35,816 nt of DNA, taken from contig DAOUYT010000004.1 of assembly GCA_030665965.1 (NCBI GenBank), positions 1 to 35,816 on the forward strand, in the 5' to 3' direction. The notes beneath the pieces are model-generated. The model was not told the DNA's origin and did not search any database. It worked only from the letters and a program-made list of their open reading frames with translations. The translations under genes were made by a program, and so were the position numbers. The number at the start of each line of letters is the position of its first letter. The first letter of the stretch is position 1. Of the stretch, positions 2 to 16,518 are shown in pieces. Source of the stretch: a bacterium. GTDB lineage: Bacteria; Patescibacteriota; Minisyncoccia; Minisyncoccales; JANBVM01.

Positions 2-3000
2 AACACCACCCTCACCCAATTCAAGATACGCATCACTCCCAAAACCCATGCCAATATGCCTGCTCCACCAGGCTCTGACTATACTGTTACAGGTACCATA
101 ACTGCCTGGACCAGCAGCAATGAGCAATCAGGTACTGATACGGGAAGCGCCACCATTACCATTGACAACCAATCACCAGCCAATGTTACTGATGCCAGCG
201 GTTCAGCTGGAGACACCCAGGTATCTCTGAACTGGACCAACTCTACATCTACTGATTTAGACAGCACTGTAGTCTTGAGAGCAACATCCACAGTCACTGA
301 TACCCCTGTTGAAGGAAACACTTACATTGTTGGAAACACCATTGGAACCAGCATTGTGGCCTGTATTGCCACTTCTACAGAAACGTCCTGCACTGACACA
401 GGCCTGACCAATGGCACAGCCTATCACTACAAGCTCTTTGTTAAAGACACCAATGAAAACTATTCAGCTGATGGAGTGGTTCCAGCAGGGTCACCGTTTA
501 CGCCGCAAACCACATTAACAATAGACGTTACCAGCGGTCCCAAAGTTGCGAGTTTAGATTCAGGAGCAACGAGTCAGTATGTTAATGATACTGGCTGTAC
601 TACTTCTTCAACCTGCGCCGCTTTTACGCTTTCAATTTCTTTTGGATCAGAAACAATCACCTCAATTAAAATTACCGAAACAGGAACAGCTGCAGCAGAT
701 ACTTATTTGTCTAATTTAGCCTTATTTTATGATACGGACGACAATTTTTCTAATGGCACAACCGGTCAATATGGTACAACCGTTGCAAATTTTGCTGCTG
801 ATCAGACAGCTAATGTTAGTGGTTCTTTAGTAGTTTCCTCTGACACCACCTATTATTTCTATGTTCGTTTTGATGTAGTAAATGGAGCAAATTATCCTAC
901 TGGCGGCCAAACGGTTAATTTCCAAATTGCCGTTGATGCTGATGTTGGCACAACCGGCACACCAAATAAAACAGGCGCGCCCGTAACACTGGCTGGTATC
1001 ACTTCCATTCGTCCCGATGTTACTTCCATTGCCTATCCTCAACCTCCCGATGGCGGCAGAAATGGAGATACTTTTACCATCAGCGGTGTTGGATTTGCAA
1101 CGAGCTGTGCTGATGTCTCTGTTCAAATTCAGACCACAGATTTAACCTGCAACAGTGCTGCCACAACCTCTCTCTCGGTGACTATTCCTGTTGCTCAAAC
1201 AACTACATTTGGCGGTACAGGATCAAATGGTCTTTTGGTTACAGTCGGCGGGACTGCTGATGATGCGCGTCAAGACTTCTTTATCTATCCTAAAATAGAT
1301 TCTATCACCGTGCCAACTGGTTTTGCTTCAAGTACTGCTCGAGAATTTCAAAATGGTGATACAGATGGCATAATCACTCTTAATGGTTCACGATTCGGGA
1401 CTAATGGAACTGTTACAGTCTTGGGTCAAAGTGCCACTACAACCAGCTATGCAGATACGGCAGTTGAATTGCAAATTCCGACCAGTATACCAGATAATGT
1501 TTATACCGGTGATATTGTTCTTACTCGAACCAATCCTTCAGATAATAAAACTGTTACCTCAACTAATTTCAGGATTTTGCCTCGCATCATTTCCCTTATT
1601 CCCAATAACGGACTGGAGGGTGATGCAGTGACCATTAGCGGTAATCATTTTTGCCAGACAGGCACCTGTCCGCCATCGGGGCAAAGAAATACTTCTACTT
1701 CGACCATAACCTTTAATGGTGTTAATGTTCCTGACAGCGATGTTACAGCCTGGTCTGATGCTTCAATTGAAGTTAAGGTGCCGACAGGTGCTACTACCGG
1801 ACTAGTAATAGTAAAAAGTAATAACTTTACATCAAATGGCGTTACTTTTTCTGTCGGTGTACCAGATGCCACCTCATTTATTAATAATACAGATGGTGGT
1901 TTACTTGACGGTGGCCGGCCGGGTCAAAGCATTACTGTTACTGGCACCTATTTCGCTTCTGCCTGTTCTGCTCCATCAACCGAGGTAAAGATTGGTACTT
2001 ACAGCGTACCCTGCTCTGATGTTTCTAATTGGACCGCCACATCTGTCACTTTTACAATTCCAACTTCTACTACAGCCTATGGCGGAAGTGGTTCTGACGG
2101 ACTTATTATTAGAGCCGATGATCAGGATGATCAGACTCCTCTTACTTTCTTTGTTTACCCTAAGGTTACAAATATCGTCACTCCTTTAATTAGTGGGGCA
2201 GCTCGTGAGGGAGAAACTATAACCCTAACTGGTCTGCGCTTTGGTACTGCAGGTACAGTCACTATCCTGGGAGAGAATGCCACTATCTCTTCCTGGCAAG
2301 ATACAAGCGTGAGTATTGCTGTACCTTCAAGCATTGCTGACAATAATTATACAGGAACAGTTATTCTTATGCGAAGTTCGCCCAGCGGTAATAAATCTCA
2401 TACTGCTACCTCATCGTTTAGAATCCTGCCCAGGATTACCAGTCTTAATCCTAATTCTGGTGAGACCGGAGATCCTGTTCAAATCTTGGGCAATCACTTT
2501 TGTCAAACAGGAACCTGTCCTGCTGCTGGTTCAAAAAGTACCTCAACAGACAATGTTAAATTTTACAATGCTATTCAAGTATCTGATGCCAATGTTACTG
2601 CCTGGTCTGATACTCAGATTGACGTCAAGGTGCCCAGTGGTGCTGAGACCGGTAATGTTATAATTAGAAGCAATGATTATAATAGTAATGGGGTTAGTTT
2701 TACAGTTTCTGAAGCCGAGGAACCTCCACCTGCTGCGCCACCTCCTAGTGGAGGAATCTATATTTACATCGGAGACCCTATTGCTGCTACTCCAAAGGCC
2801 ATCTCGCAAGAGACTATTAGATGGTATTTTATTGATACTGCTACAGATGAAACTGGATTTAAATTATATATTAAACAGAATGGTTATTATAAAGAGATTG
2901 TATCTTCCTCAATCCCAGATTTAGAATTTCTGGATGAAACAGGCCTTTCTCCAAATACAAGGTATTCCAAAAGATATGTCAGAGCTTTTAGAGACTCCTG

Positions 3001-5270: not shown

Positions 5271-6083
5271 ATGAATAATATGAACAAGGTGGTAAAGGTA
5301 AAGGTTGAAGAAAATCTGAAAAAATCCATTTTGGATGCAGTGGATGAAATTGGCGGGTTAAAACACTTTATTAATAAAGGAGAAGTGGTTTTGTTAAAAC
5401 CTAATTTTAACACAGCTGATCCTCCTCCAGCTTCCACGGATTTAGAGTTTTTAAAAGCTGTAACTGAATTAGTCTATGATTGCGGGGCAAAGATAGTAAT
5501 GATTGGTGATTCTTCTACTATGAGTTTGAACACCAGAAAGGTAATGGAAACACTTAAGGTTTTTGAATTGGAGGATATGAAGACGCCTCCTCGTATTTAT
5601 GTTTTTGACGAGCGTAAATGGATAAAAAAAGAGATACCAGGGGCTAAATACTTTAAAAGCGTTTCTGTAACAGAATATTTAGACCGGGCTGATAAATTAA
5701 TCCTTCTTCCCTGTCTAAAAACCCATTTTTTAGCCCAGTTTTCGGGGAGCTTGAAATTAAGCGTTGGTTTTATAAAGCCTTTTCAACGGGTTCGGCTTCA
5801 TTTAGGATATATTCAGGAAAAGATAGCAGAATTAAACAAGATTATTAATCCTGACTTAATTATTATGGATGCCAGGAAATGCTTTATTAAAAAGGGTCCA
5901 GCTGAAGGAGAAATGCGGGAGCCAGGATTGATTTTAGCTTCAATAAACAGAGTGGCTTTGGATGTTGAAGGAATAAAGATTATTCAAGGTTTCAAAGGTA
6001 ATTCATTGAAAAATATTGCTCCCTGGGAATTACCTCAAATTAAAAAAGCAGTAGAGCTTGGTATTGACAGTAAGCTTAAGTGA
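5271..6083 (+). CDS. DUF362 domain-containing protein
   Basis: The 270-residue product matches the DUF362 family in layout: an early VLLKPNFN stretch (about residues 40-47), a GDSS motif, a central LPCLKTH stretch, and a C-terminal LDVEGIKI region. DUF362 proteins are often linked to iron-sulfur proteins and their biochemical role is mostly unassigned. No ferredoxin-type cysteine cluster is visible here, so only the DUF362 core is present. Start at 5271 or 5280 (both ATG) is ambiguous. A GATAAAAT box near 5240 could be its -10. The stop is 7 bases before the diphosphomevalonate decarboxylase start, suggesting cotranscription with mevalonate-pathway genes; a functional link is inference. Confidence 0.75.
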   Translation: MNNMNKVVKVKVEENLKKSILDAVDEIGGLKHFINKGEVVLLKPNFNTADPPPASTDLEFLKAVTELVYDCGAKIVMIGDSSTMSLNTRKVMETLKVFELEDMKTPPRIYVFDERKWIKKEIPGAKYFKSVSVTEYLDRADKLILLPCLKTHFLAQFSGSLKLSVGFIKPFQRVRLHLGYIQEKIAELNKIINPDLIIMDARKCFIKKGPAEGEMREPGLILASINRVALDVEGIKIIQGFKGNSLKNIAPWELPQIKKAVELGIDSKLK

Positions 6084-6090
6084 AAAACAT

Positions 6091-7092
6091 ATGAAAGCTT
6101 CAGCTATAGCAAATGCTAACATTGCTCTGGTAAAATATTGGGGAAAGAGGAATAAAGAACTCATACTTCCAAACAACACCAGTATAAGTATGACAGCAGA
6201 TGGCTTATATGCTCATACCACGGTTGAGTTTGATAAGAAATACAAAGAAGACATATTTGTGTTAAACGGTAGGGAATTGAGAGAGGGTTCCAGGGAATAT
6301 GATGAATACATTGGTTTATTTTTAAAGGTAGTTAGGGAGAAAACGAAAGAAGAAGATAGGGTAAAGATTGTAAGCAACAATAACTTTCCGACAGCAGCAG
6401 GTTTAGCTTCTTCAGCAGCAGGATTTGCTGCTTTGGCTACAGCCTTCAACAAAGCTCTTAATTTGGATTTAGATAAAAAGGATTTGAGCATTCTTGCAAG
6501 AAGGGGGTCGGGTTCAGCAACAAGGTCTATTTTTGGTGGTTTTGTTGAATGGAAAAAAGGAGAAAAAAAAGATGGTTCTGATTCTTATGCAGAACAGATA
6601 GCATCTTTAACATACTGGCCTGATTTTAGAATGATAGCTTGTATCACTTCTAAAAAACAAAAAAAGATAAGTTCCAGAGCAGGAATGGCTAGAACGGTTG
6701 CAACTTCACCAATGTACAAAAGCTGGTTATTGGGCATTGAACAAGACATAGAAAAAGTAAAGAAAGGTATACTAAAAAGAGATTTCACTCTTGTAGGAAG
6801 GACATCTGAAGAAAATTGTTTGAAAATGCATGCCACAATGATAACTACCCAGCCTGCTATCATCTATTGGAATAAATCTACCATAGAGACAATACAATCT
6901 GTTATTGACTGGCGGAATAAGGGATTGGAATGTTATTTTACAATCGATGCAGGTCCTCAGGTAAAGATTATGTGTCTGGAAAAGAATGTTGATTCAATTA
7001 TAAAGAGATGTAAAAAATTAGAAGGTGTAAAAGATGTTATTGTTATAAAACCAGGAGAGGGAGCAAAAATTACCAATGAACATTTATTTTGA
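6091..7092 (+). CDS. mvaD: Diphosphomevalonate decarboxylase
   Basis: This enzyme decarboxylates mevalonate diphosphate to isopentenyl diphosphate using ATP, the last step of the classical mevalonate pathway. The 333-residue protein opens with ANANIALVKYWGKRN, diagnostic of the family, followed by LPNNTSISMT. The GHMP-kinase glycine/serine loop is TAAGLASSAAGFAAL (about residues 101-115), and a GSGSATRS motif follows. The ATG at 6091 fits the family N-terminus; an in-frame TTG at 6058 would add an unrelated extension overlapping the DUF362 gene. It sits 72 bases before phosphomevalonate kinase and probably shares its transcript. The soluble enzyme should act in the cytoplasm. Confidence 0.93.
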   Translation: MKASAIANANIALVKYWGKRNKELILPNNTSISMTADGLYAHTTVEFDKKYKEDIFVLNGRELREGSREYDEYIGLFLKVVREKTKEEDRVKIVSNNNFPTAAGLASSAAGFAALATAFNKALNLDLDKKDLSILARRGSGSATRSIFGGFVEWKKGEKKDGSDSYAEQIASLTYWPDFRMIACITSKKQKKISSRAGMARTVATSPMYKSWLLGIEQDIEKVKKGILKRDFTLVGRTSEENCLKMHATMITTQPAIIYWNKSTIETIQSVIDWRNKGLECYFTIDAGPQVKIMCLEKNVDSIIKRCKKLEGVKDVIVIKPGEGAKITNEHLF

Positions 7093-7164: not shown

Positions 7165-8286
7165 ATGGTAAAGATATCAGCCCCGGGAAAAATTTGCATT
7201 GCAGGTGAATGGTCTGTTTTAGAAGTGGGAAATCCATTAATTGTTGCGGCTGTTGATAAAAGGGTTTTTGCAGAGATAAAAGAATCTAAAGATGAATTCA
7301 TTCATGTATCCATTAAAGATTTTGGGATAGAGGATTTAAAAGCTTCATTTGAGGGAAATGAATTGAGATTTGAAAGAAGTTTAAAAGAAAAAGAGAAGAA
7401 AGATACCCTTTTTATAAAATCTGCAATTGAGTCTGTATTAAGATACTTTGGTTTAATTAAACCTTTTGAAATTAGAACATGGGGAGAGGAAACAACAATA
7501 AAGATAGGGGATGATGTAAAAACGATTGGTTTCGGCTCTTCAGCAGCCAGTGTTGTAGCTGGTATTACTGGTCTTTTTAAATTTTATGGTAAAGACATAG
7601 AAGAAAAACTGTCAAAAGAAAAGATATATAAGTTATCAGCCATTAGCCATTATCTTGCTCAAGGAAAAGTAGGCTCTGGCTTTGATGTTGCAGCTTCAAC
7701 CTTTGGGGGAATTTTAATTTACAAGAGATTTGATTCCCAGTGGTTAATGAATCAATTTAAAGAAAATAAGAATCTTAGAGAAATTGTACAAATGAGGTGG
7801 CCGGGCTTCCATGTTGAGACCCTTCAAATCCCCAATGATTTTAACTTGCTTGTGGGTTGGACAGGACAACCTTCTTTAACTGCTGAAATGGTAAGACAGG
7901 TAAATGGATGGAAGGAGAATAACAAGAAAGAATATAAAAGGATTCTTGACCGGATAAAAAATCTGGTAGAACAATTAATAAAGGTATGGAAAAACAATGA
8001 CAAAGAGAAAATCTTAGAACTTATAAAAAGAAATGAGGATTATCTCAGAGAGCTTGGGGATAAATCTGGGGTAATGATAGAGACAGAGGAACTGTTAAAA
8101 TTAAGCAGGATTGCCAATAAAAACAAGGGAGCAGGAAAACTTTCAGGAGCAGGTGGTGGAGATTGCGGCATAGCAATTACATTCAATAAAGAACATTCAG
8201 AGATAATAAAGAAAGAATGGCAGGAAAACGGAATCTATTTTATTGATACGGCTTTGTCCTTTTTGGGTGTAAGGGAAGAAGATTAA
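7165..8286 (+). CDS. Phosphomevalonate kinase (GHMP family)
   Basis: The predicted reaction is ATP-dependent phosphorylation of 5-phosphomevalonate to mevalonate diphosphate, the substrate of the enzyme encoded just upstream. The 373-residue protein has the GHMP N-terminal motif SAPGKICIAGEWSVLE, the ATP-binding loop IGFGSSAASVVAG (about residues 121-133), the sequence KVGSGFDVAASTFGG typical of this kinase, and the C-terminal GAGKLSGAGGGDCGIA motif. No other GHMP kinase (mevalonate kinase) is in the window, and neither are HMG-CoA synthase or reductase, so the rest of the pathway would lie elsewhere or be absent. Mevalonate kinase is the main alternative, but the GEWSVLE opening and the pairing with mvaD favour phosphomevalonate kinase. 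Confidence 0.88.
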   Translation: MVKISAPGKICIAGEWSVLEVGNPLIVAAVDKRVFAEIKESKDEFIHVSIKDFGIEDLKASFEGNELRFERSLKEKEKKDTLFIKSAIESVLRYFGLIKPFEIRTWGEETTIKIGDDVKTIGFGSSAASVVAGITGLFKFYGKDIEEKLSKEKIYKLSAISHYLAQGKVGSGFDVAASTFGGILIYKRFDSQWLMNQFKENKNLREIVQMRWPGFHVETLQIPNDFNLLVGWTGQPSLTAEMVRQVNGWKENNKKEYKRILDRIKNLVEQLIKVWKNNDKEKILELIKRNEDYLRELGDKSGVMIETEELLKLSRIANKNKGAGKLSGAGGGDCGIAITFNKEHSEIIKKEWQENGIYFIDTALSFLGVREED

Positions 8287-14302: not shown

Positions 14303-15178
14303 ATGATAGAGAAAGACAAAAGATTTATTTTCTGGATTTTTTTTGTTTTGCTCTGGGTTAATTCTTTTGCCTGGGCTGTAGTTTATGATTTAAACAGACC
14401 TCAATCTCTTGAGGTTATTTTTTTTGATATAGGACAAGGAGATGCTATTTTTATTGAAACCCCAAATAATTATCAAATTTTAATTGACGGAGGTCCGACC
14501 TCTGCCATTTTAGAAAAGTTAGGCAAAGAAATGCCTTTCTGGGATAGGACAATTGATTTGGTTGTCCTTACACATCCAGAGCACGACCATATCGCAGGTT
14601 TAATTGAGGTTTTAAAAAGATATGAAGTAGATTATATTTTATGGACAGGGATATTGAGAAATACCGGAGAATATAAAGAATGGAAAAGATTAATTGAAGA
14701 GGAAATAGTTCAGGTAAAGATAGCAAAGGCAAATCAAAAGATATTTTTTCCAGAGACCTTTCTTGATGTATTATATCCTTTTGAAGATTTAGAAGGAAAA
14801 GATTTTAAAAACACCAACAACACTTCAATTGCTCTCCGTTTGGTTTTTAATAATCATTCTTTTATCTTTACCGGAGACCTTTATAAATCAGTAGAGAGAA
14901 AACTTGTTGATAGGGGACTATATCTTGATTCTGATGTTTTAAAGGTTGGTCATCACGGCAGCAAGACTTCTTCTTGTGAAGAATTCTTAGAAAAAGTTAA
15001 ACCTGAAATAGCCGTAATCTCGGCTGGCAAAGAAAATTCTTACGGCCATCCCCATCCAGAAGTTTTGGAGGTTTTAGATAAATATGATATAACAGTTCTA
15101 AGAACAGATATTGATGGAGATATAAAGATTATTTCAGACGGAGAAAGCATGGAAATAAAAAAAACAAAAAATCTATGA
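14303..15178 (+). CDS. ComEC-like metallo-beta-lactamase-fold hydrolase
   Basis: The 291-residue protein has one N-terminal hydrophobic helix (about residues 8-27) and then a metallo-beta-lactamase fold. Key motifs are FFDIGQGDAIFIE (40-52), LIDGG (60-64), the metal site THPEHDHIAGL (90-100), FTGD, KVGHHGSKTSS, and SYGHPHPEVL. These match the periplasmic hydrolase domain of ComEC/Rec2 and its stand-alone relatives. No ComEC channel domain is present. It probably acts outside the membrane, anchored by its N-terminal helix. A nuclease role in DNA uptake is possible, but hydrolysis of another phosphoester cannot be ruled out. Its stop overlaps the next start (ATGA, 15175-15178), so the two genes are probably translationally coupled. 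Confidence 0.87.
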   Translation: MIEKDKRFIFWIFFVLLWVNSFAWAVVYDLNRPQSLEVIFFDIGQGDAIFIETPNNYQILIDGGPTSAILEKLGKEMPFWDRTIDLVVLTHPEHDHIAGLIEVLKRYEVDYILWTGILRNTGEYKEWKRLIEEEIVQVKIAKANQKIFFPETFLDVLYPFEDLEGKDFKNTNNTSIALRLVFNNHSFIFTGDLYKSVERKLVDRGLYLDSDVLKVGHHGSKTSSCEEFLEKVKPEIAVISAGKENSYGHPHPEVLEVLDKYDITVLRTDIDGDIKIISDGESMEIKKTKNL

Positions 15179-16242
15179 TTAAATTTCCTCTTTTTAAAAC
15201 AAAGATCAAGGGCCTTGAAAAAAAGTTTAATTTAATAGACCCCAAAGAGCAAAGAGAGTATTTTGAGGCAAAAGCAGGAGAAGAGATTAAAAAATTAAGG
15301 GAATATTTAAAAGAAAACACCTTTATTGCTTATTTGCTGGGAAAGAAAAACTCTGGCAAGGGTACTTATTCAAAGATGTTTGCCCAGATTATTAATCCTG
15401 AAAGAATAGAACATTTTTCCGTAGGAGACATGATTAGAAGAATAGATGAGGAATTGACAGATGAAAAGCAGAAAAAAGAATTATTTGATTTTTTAAAAAA
15501 AAATTACAGGGGAAGGTTTTCAATGGATGAAATCATTTCCAGCTTGGAAAACCGTAGTACAAAGACTCTATTGCCCACAGACTTGATTTTAACCTTGACT
15601 AAAAGAGAAATAGAGAAAATGGAAAAGAAAACCCTTTTTGTAGATGGCTTTCCCAGGAATCTGGGTCAGATAGATTTTTCCTTGTTTTTCAGAGACTTGG
15701 TTGGTTATCGAGATGACCCCGATGTTTTTATCTTAATCGATGTTCCTGAAAAAGTAATTGATGAAAGAATTAAATGGAGAAGGATTTGTCCTGTTTGTCA
15801 GACCTCAAGAAATCTAAAACTATTTCCCACCTCAAAGGTTGATTTTGACCAGAAGACCAATGAATTTTATTTAATCTGCGACAATCCCGATTGCAGGGGA
15901 GTTCGTATGGTTTTAAAAGAAGGAGATGAATTGGGGATTGAACCAATAAAAGAAAGATTGAAGACATACGATAAATTAATTCAGCAATCACTTTCCCTTT
16001 ATGGCATTCCAAAGGTTTTATTAAGGAATTCGGTACCGGTGAAAAAAGCCAAAGACCTTATCGATGATTATGAGATAACCCCGGAATATGTTTTTGAGTT
16101 TGACAAAGAGACCAAAGAAGTAAAAGTAAAAGAAAAACCCTGGATTGTTTTAGATGATGAAGGTGCTCCTTCTTATGGCTTGTTACCCTCTCCCATGGTT
16201 GTTTCTTTAATTAAACAACTGGTTGAAGTTTTTAATCTTTAA
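15175..16242 (+). CDS. Adenylate-kinase-like nucleotide kinase with long extensions
   Basis: The 355-residue protein has an adenylate-kinase core flanked by extensions of about 45 residues (N) and 80 residues (C). The P-loop is GKKNSGKGT (56-64) and the nucleotide-monophosphate motif is VDGFPRN (156-162). The LID is enlarged and has four cysteines in two pairs (Cys205, Cys208, Cys235, Cys240) that probably bind zinc. Typical adenylate kinases are about 215 residues. It is probably a nucleoside monophosphate kinase; substrate choice is uncertain because of the extensions. It overlaps the upstream hydrolase gene by 4 bases. The spc-type adenylate kinase at 32637 is a different, shorter protein, so this genome carries at least two family members. 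Confidence 0.8.
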   Translation: MIKFPLFKTKIKGLEKKFNLIDPKEQREYFEAKAGEEIKKLREYLKENTFIAYLLGKKNSGKGTYSKMFAQIINPERIEHFSVGDMIRRIDEELTDEKQKKELFDFLKKNYRGRFSMDEIISSLENRSTKTLLPTDLILTLTKREIEKMEKKTLFVDGFPRNLGQIDFSLFFRDLVGYRDDPDVFILIDVPEKVIDERIKWRRICPVCQTSRNLKLFPTSKVDFDQKTNEFYLICDNPDCRGVRMVLKEGDELGIEPIKERLKTYDKLIQQSLSLYGIPKVLLRNSVPVKKAKDLIDDYEITPEYVFEFDKETKEVKVKEKPWIVLDDEGAPSYGLLPSPMVVSLIKQLVEVFNL

Positions 16243-16248
16243 AATCAT

Positions 16249-16278
16249 TTGACACAGGATGCTCAGGAAAGATAAAAT
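16249..16278 (+). promoter_or_regulatory. Strong candidate promoter for a structured RNA
   Basis: A consensus TTGACA (16249-16254) is followed, after 16-18 bases, by GATAAAAT (16271-16278). It lies just after the kinase stop at 16242. No protein-coding gene follows on this strand before a terminator at 16425. Confidence 0.6.
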
Positions 16279-16283
16279 AAAGG

Positions 16284-16446
16284 TAGCCCTGCTTTTTCTG
16301 TTAAGTCTGGTAATAAGCTTTTAAAGGGAATCTGATAATGAATGTATCCCGTGGGATACATCTTAGATACCCACTTAGAATATTCCCGGACGAGCTTTTC
16401 AGAGGAAAGCAGGGTATCAAAAATCGCCTCTGAGAGGCGTTTTTTG
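16284..16446 (+). ncRNA. Candidate structured non-coding RNA, about 160 nt
   Basis: Between a near-consensus promoter and an intrinsic terminator lies a segment with nested pairing. CCCTGCTTT (16287-16295) pairs perfectly with AAAGCAGGG (16406-16414) and would close the molecule. GTCTGG (16305-16310) can pair with CCGGAC (16386-16391). A perfect apical hairpin, ATGTATCCC-GT-GGGATACAT, lies at 16342-16361. GCTTTTC and GGAAAGC (16394-16410) can form an alternative hairpin that competes with the closing stem. No convincing open reading frame or start signal is present. The rod-like shape with a closing stem recalls 6S RNA, but I see no diagnostic sequence. It lacks the conserved SRP RNA tip and the tRNA-like end of tmRNA. 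Confidence 0.5.
16420..16445. terminator. Bidirectional terminator between the candidate RNA and tRNA-Pro
   Basis: CGCCTC (16425-16430), loop TGA, and GAGGCG (16434-16439) are followed by six T on the plus strand and, on the minus strand, by ATTTTT. It ends the candidate RNA on one side and the L28/tRNA transcript on the other. Confidence 0.88.
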
Positions 16447-16518
16447 GTCGGGGTAGGCGGAATTGAACCGCCGCAGCGCCCACCCCAAGGGCGTAGACTA
16501 CCATTATCCTATACCCCG
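16445..16518 (-). tRNA. tRNA-Pro (anticodon GGG)
   Basis: On the minus strand the sequence folds as a full cloverleaf. The acceptor stem is CGGGGTA with TACCCCG, the discriminator is A, and CCA is encoded. The D arm is GGAT...GTCT with GG in its loop, the anticodon stem is CGCCC/GGGCG with loop TTGGGGT (anticodon GGG), and the T arm is GGCGG-TTCAATT-CCGCC. It would read CCC and CCU proline codons. It starts 6 bases after the L28 stop and is probably cut from a shared transcript. Confidence 0.95.

Follow-up and report, generated by a model that had tools for sequence, protein, structure and literature searches.

The segment from 16286 to 16415 on the + strand of the window, a stretch of 35,816 nt from contig DAOUYT010000004.1, very probably encodes a divergent, shortened 6S RNA (ssrS) of Patescibacteria, which would act as an inhibitor of the sigma-70 holoenzyme and would be released by product-RNA synthesis. 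Comparative sequence analysis established the homology to 6S RNA in both sequence and structure, and binding and regulatory function would follow from this homology. 6S RNA is a global transcription regulator, described as widespread in bacteria, which mimics an open promoter and holds back RNA polymerase. The ultra-small Patescibacteria form a very large group, for the most part uncultured, and little is known of how they regulate their genes. The source genome comprises 470 kb in 33 contigs.

Locus and conserved transcription unit

The following elements were located (positions in the window). Within the RNA, the order from 5′ to 3′ is P1, P2, 5′ central bubble, P3, P4, 3′ central bubble, P2′ and P1′.

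15175..16242, + strand: adenylate-kinase-like gene of 355 aa with an ADK domain (PF00406, 50.1 bits); upstream neighbour, outside the RNA
16249..16278, + strand: sigma-70-type promoter TTGACA-N18-TAAAAT, found in the sequence with 11/12 consensus matches (-35 TTGACA at 16249-16254, -10 TAAAAT at 16273-16278, spacer of 18 nt)
16286..16415, + strand: structured body of the predicted 6S RNA, about 130 nt (models R1, R2 and R3; fold z -5.6)
16286..16300, + strand: P1 closing stem, 5′ strand; its partner is the 3′ strand ending at 16415
16306..16310, + strand: P2 helix, 5′ strand UCUGG, with CCGGA at 16386-16390 as partner; corresponds to the downstream duplex of 6S RNA
16311..16325, + strand: central bubble, 5′ strand; matches the 5′ central bubble of RF00013 in the alignment and holds a conserved pyrimidine, here U16314
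16326..16372, + strand: apical arm (P3 and P4); covariation helices 4 and 5
16326-16332 with 16366-16372, + strand: P3, GGG-AUC with GAU-ACCC; the strands correspond to the GGGagcc/ggcaCCCACCU core of RF00013
16342-16361, + strand: P4 hairpin with the loop motif CCCGUGGG; 16342-16349 pairs with 16354-16361 (8 bp)
16373..16385, + strand: central bubble, 3′ strand; part of the CACYUGGA core motif, in the window ACTTAGAATATTC
16425..16445, + strand: intrinsic terminator of the predicted 6S RNA; stem 16425-16430/16434-16439, then six T
16445..16518, - strand: tRNA-Pro(GGG), convergent neighbour (ARAGORN and permissive Rfam search)

The closing stem contains a perfect 9 bp at 16287-16295/16406-16414 (CCCTGCTTT/AAAGCAGGG). 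The earlier note on this DNA had listed a near-consensus promoter, a closing stem, internal structure and a terminator in this order, all of which are present in the sequence; the apical hairpin it described exists as well, with 8 bp instead of the 9 claimed. Its description of a stand-alone structured non-coding RNA also holds, as the RNA is equipped with a promoter and a terminator of its own, no coding sequence was found to explain it and no same-strand gene follows downstream in the window.

Due to the promoter-body spacing, which is conserved in homologous loci, the 5′ end of the RNA is predicted at 16285/16286, and the transcript most likely extends from about 16286 to 16445. For 40 of 71 homologous loci, the best promoter-like site has a -10 box whose end is exactly 7 nt upstream of the RNA body. 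Promoter-like sites with at least 10 of 12 matches were found in 55 of the 71 loci and in 2.9% of the shuffled sequences, and an intrinsic terminator downstream in 37 of 70 loci, compared to 1.1% of the shuffles. By inspection, several loci lacking a terminator match carry a T run right behind the closing stem. By its sequence, the locus forms a transcription unit of its own, for an RNA of about 130-160 nt.

The terminator stem (16425-16439) can be read in both directions and looks like a terminator on the minus strand too, facing the transcription of tRNA-Pro. The tRNA-Pro gene itself was missed by the Rfam search of the whole window at gathering cut-offs, probably by a filter effect, since it scores 56.8 bits in the permissive search at a cut-off of 29 bits.

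Fold, covariation and relationship to 6S RNA

Including the terminator, the RNA reaches a folding energy of -63.5 kcal/mol, compared to -38.8 +/- 3.8 kcal/mol for shuffled sequences (z = -6.5), and none of 200 shuffles was as stable. Without the terminator, z still amounts to -5.6. Covariation was computed on A6, a MAFFT alignment of 52 homologs from the order of the source genome. Standard pairs are formed in 88.2% of the cells, compared to 76.5% in shuffled alignments and at most 55% for slid versions of the structure, over which the structure string has a bias in its favour, having been derived with RNAalifold from A6 itself; the covariation effect is far larger than this bias. Changes on both sides were observed in 31 of 36 pairs, and double-sided compensatory cells amount to 276, compared to 92 in the shuffles. 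Strong covariation was found in all five helices. The closing stem P1, for which the earlier note had proposed to look for compensatory changes in relatives, corresponds to helices 1 and 2, paired in 98.3% and 86.0% of the cells respectively, with both-sided changes in 12 of 13 pairs. P2 corresponds to helix 3 (78.5% of the cells paired; both-sided changes in six of seven pairs). Covariation of the closing stem, P3 and P4 persists across the phylum-wide alignment, with 326 double-sided cells versus 98, and the helices of P3 and P4 are paired in 88-92%. The MAFFT alignment was incorrect over the 3′ half of divergent copies, and one genome (G005) was for this reason omitted from the first model.

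A pairing alternative kept in relatives is a hairpin in the 3′ central bubble that opposes P2, of the kind described for 6S RNA (PMC8876501) and distinct from the competing hairpin at 16394-16410 proposed in the earlier note. With a score of at least 10, it was found in 78% of 36 phylum-wide sequences (21% of shuffles) and in 54% of the sequences of the order (15% of shuffles). With the same scoring, this hairpin is absent from the window copy.

Searches with the Rfam covariance models gave no match at gathering cut-offs anywhere in the window. For the window copy, no RF00013 match was obtained even at E < 10, and the permissive matches on the plus strand are at chance level only. The RF00013 cut-off of 46.4 bits, which is a curation threshold and not a biological feature, was reached by none of 60 relatives in the order (best 28.2 bits). 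A permissive Rfam scan of 20 divergent homologs returned sub-threshold RF00013 matches for two of them at the exact place and strand of the homolog, L011 with 28.2 bits (model positions 18-170) and L063 with 27.9 bits (model positions 1-187). In these alignments, the stretch GGGagcc...ggcaCCCACCUggaA has the highest conservation both in the 6S consensus and in the Patescibacteria RNA, and RF00013 is also aligned with the A-rich/U-rich 5′ bubble and with P2. The core common to RF00013 and the Patescibacteria RNA reads GGGagYC...GRcaCCCACYUGGA. The earlier note had seen no family signature and had termed the RNA undescribed, which does not hold, as the RNA carries this best-conserved stretch of the 6S consensus and is homologous to 6S RNA; the likeness of its rod shape to 6S RNA, which the same note had pointed out, is borne out by this homology.

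The identification as 6S RNA is based on the two-way agreement of RF00013 and R2, a model trained on the order of the source genome only. In a sample of 287 Patescibacteria genomes, both models matched 13 genomes in common, and in all 13 the matches coincide in place and strand. Conversely, R2 recovered three loci from other classes that are all above the Rfam cut-off for 6S RNA (L113, L114 and L115), with E-values between 3e-7 and 0.002 for a search of 15.8 kb. Pairwise alignments of the window RNA with Rfam-positive loci were little or no better than those of shuffles, so that the link to 6S RNA rests on profiles. A search with R3, a model built from the phylum-wide alignment A8, gave no match on the E. 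coli 6S RNA (ssrS).

Like 6S RNA (RF00013), the RNA is rod-shaped, composed of a closing stem, a central bubble and an apical arm, has P2 beside the bubble and the core motifs in the same places, and in many homologs, though not in the window copy, contains the 3′-bubble hairpin. A predicted own promoter and terminator and the usual single copy per genome are further common traits. It differs in its body of about 130 nt, compared to 187 model positions, with the gaps mainly in the apical arm, and in its CCGUGG apical loop; the window copy escapes RF00013. Proteins with sigma-70 region 4 are encoded in the genome of the window.

Two kinds of insertion were observed among the homologs. In L024, L034, L036, L043 and L047, an extra hairpin (UURGAARUUAU...AUAAUUUCUAAC) is located 5′ of the usual RNA start, with the promoter farther upstream; it represents an insertion domain on the 5′ side, present in several families (L036 and relatives). 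In L011, a GC-rich hairpin (1453-1500, minus strand) is inserted into the 3′ side of the 6S closing stem.

Distribution and gene neighbourhood

Homologs in several genera with 71-86% identity were found by DNA search, and an exact-pattern search with the RNA core returned three public records, among them JAHCRH010000010.1 (Patescibacteria group bacterium). The covariance model R1, built from six sequences including the window copy, gives matches in 165 of the order's 246 genomes, in agreement with the conservation in relatives asked about in the earlier note, and a second match was found in few genomes only. In the strand-resolved table, R1 also matches the antisense strand of some copies weakly; these matches, which are expected of a rod-shaped RNA, were excluded. 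The window copy scores 130.8 bits with R1, 101.1 bits with R2 and 86 bits with R3. Two full-scoring copies, of 96 and 92 bits, are present in G087 (C2:9399-9535 and C5:19118-19257) and may be 6S paralogs or a contamination.

In the phylum sample, R2 detects the RNA in 74 of the 287 genomes. RF00013 matches 22 of the 287 at E <= 0.1, only three above the cut-off. The retrained model R3 finds the RNA in 111 of the 287 genomes; as some RF00013-positive loci were among its training sequences, it was used to assess the spread and not as a proof of homology. An apparent gap in the distribution of 6S RNA, which Rfam calls in three of 287 genomes, is filled by these matches, and the alignments are directly usable to extend RF00013. 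Among the open papers searched, none was found that joins 6S RNA with Patescibacteria, CPR, Saccharibacteria or Parcubacteria, though earlier reports may exist; the sole joint match of the topic with Patescibacteria concerns the SRP.

The gene order adenylate-kinase-like gene, 6S RNA and tRNA-Pro(GGG) is kept. In most loci with long flanks, the RNA is preceded on the same strand by an ORF of about 350-370 aa, which is adenylate-kinase-like in all five that were tested. In E. coli, by contrast, 6S RNA is flanked by zapA and fau (ygfA). Apart from the window, tRNAs near the RNA were found in 28 loci of the order, and all of them are tRNA-Pro(GGG), located 3′ of the RNA in convergent orientation (L011, L014, L016-L019, L022, L025-L027, L029, L030, L033, L035, L037, L039, L040, L042, L043, L046, L051, L056, L058, L063, L068, L073, L074 and L079). 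In other classes, tRNA-Pro(GGG) is often located downstream on the same strand, at distances from a few bases to several dozen (L089, L090, L094, L108 and L109), and in several of these classes the 6S RNA and tRNA-Pro(GGG) would probably be co-transcribed. This co-transcription is part of a wider reading, of rather low probability, of a compact, lineage-specific 6S RNA tied to tRNA-Pro(GGG), in which polymerase storage would be adapted to a host-dependent life with a reduced genome, possibly with an altered partner or trigger.

Proposed mechanism and alternative readings

Known 6S RNA is a rod with a central bubble and a 3′-bubble hairpin, whose P2 is unwound during product-RNA synthesis (PMC8876501), and the product RNA of B. 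subtilis 6S-1 begins with G (PMC12005410). By analogy, the RNA described here would bind the housekeeping sigma-70 RNA polymerase holoenzyme as an imitation of an open promoter, and the holoenzyme would be held back at low nutrients or NTPs. With a rise in NTPs, the polymerase would be templated by the bubble's 5′ strand and start opposite U16314, giving a predicted product RNA 5′-AUUACCAGACUUAAC... / 5′-AUUACCAG...; copying through P2, it would cause the RNA to refold and the enzyme to be set free. Column 38 of the 5′ bubble in the alignment of 52 homologs contains C in 39 and U in nine sequences, a gap in four and a purine in none, which is compatible with a purine-initiated product RNA. The window copy has a gap in this column, and the base matching it by eye is U16314 (C in most relatives), the predicted start site of the product RNA. 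A short natural 6S RNA would thereby be gained for mechanistic work, as well as a point at which growth control could be tested in host-dependent organisms.

A change of function in a descendant of 6S RNA, which would then bind core polymerase without sigma or serve as a polymerase store instead of inhibiting sigma-70, appears improbable. A precedent is Ms1 RNA of Actinobacteria, a 6S-related RNA that was missed by standard homology search and found via its gene neighbourhood (PMC9130861). It shares with the window RNA that it is a bubble RNA related to 6S and overlooked by standard search, and it demonstrates that a change of partner is possible in 6S-like RNAs (PMC9130861). The shorter form in Patescibacteria and the hairpins inserted in some lineages (L011, L036) would fit such a change. 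However, the central bubble, P2 and the core motifs of 6S RNA are kept in the Patescibacteria RNA, as is the 3′-bubble hairpin in many homologs. Ms1, which binds core polymerase, is moreover longer, with about 300 nt and two extra terminal hairpins (PMC9130861), whereas the window RNA has a body of 130 nt without these hairpins.

The sigma-70 inhibitor was also weighed against a new class of structured RNA unrelated to 6S, such as a switch, a leader or an antisense regulator of tRNA-Pro. Such a reading could draw on the lack of any match above an Rfam gathering score in the window, on the convergent orientation to tRNA-Pro and on the competing hairpin of the earlier note. As a non-6S class it is refuted by the coincidence of R2 with RF00013 and the recovery of L113-L115 by R2, and there is no downstream same-strand gene in the window that such an RNA could control, which leaves it with a very low probability. 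An antisense role towards tRNA-Pro was rejected, as the terminator precedes the tRNA gene; moreover, such an action is not conserved, since tRNA-Pro lies on the same strand in several loci of other classes.

Even less probable, and largely refuted, is the reading as a different rod-shaped housekeeping RNA, with the SRP RNA as the foremost candidate. The bacterial small SRP RNA (RF00169) resembles the window RNA in being a rod-shaped housekeeping RNA that is poorly detected in the order: no SRP RNA was found in the genome of the window, and among 20 relatives there is one sub-threshold match. This sole RF00169 match (G005) is located on contig C24, whereas the copy of the 6S-like RNA in the same genome is on C18. 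In the permissive scan of 20 homologs, no SRP family match was obtained at the 6S locus, whereas 6S RNA does match. As an observation on RF00169 itself, no copy above the cut-off was found in the window genome and 20 relatives, and the model possibly does not cover this group broadly enough.

A chance fold without function, conceivable insofar as rod-like inverted repeats beside a terminator can form at random and weak model matches also occur on the antisense strand, is refuted by the occurrence in 165 of 246 genomes, the covariation and the conserved promoter and terminator, and is practically negligible beside the 6S RNA reading.

Elsewhere in the window, two adjoining ORFs (7165-8286 and 6058-7092) resemble, by eye, a mevalonate-pathway kinase and a diphosphomevalonate decarboxylase.
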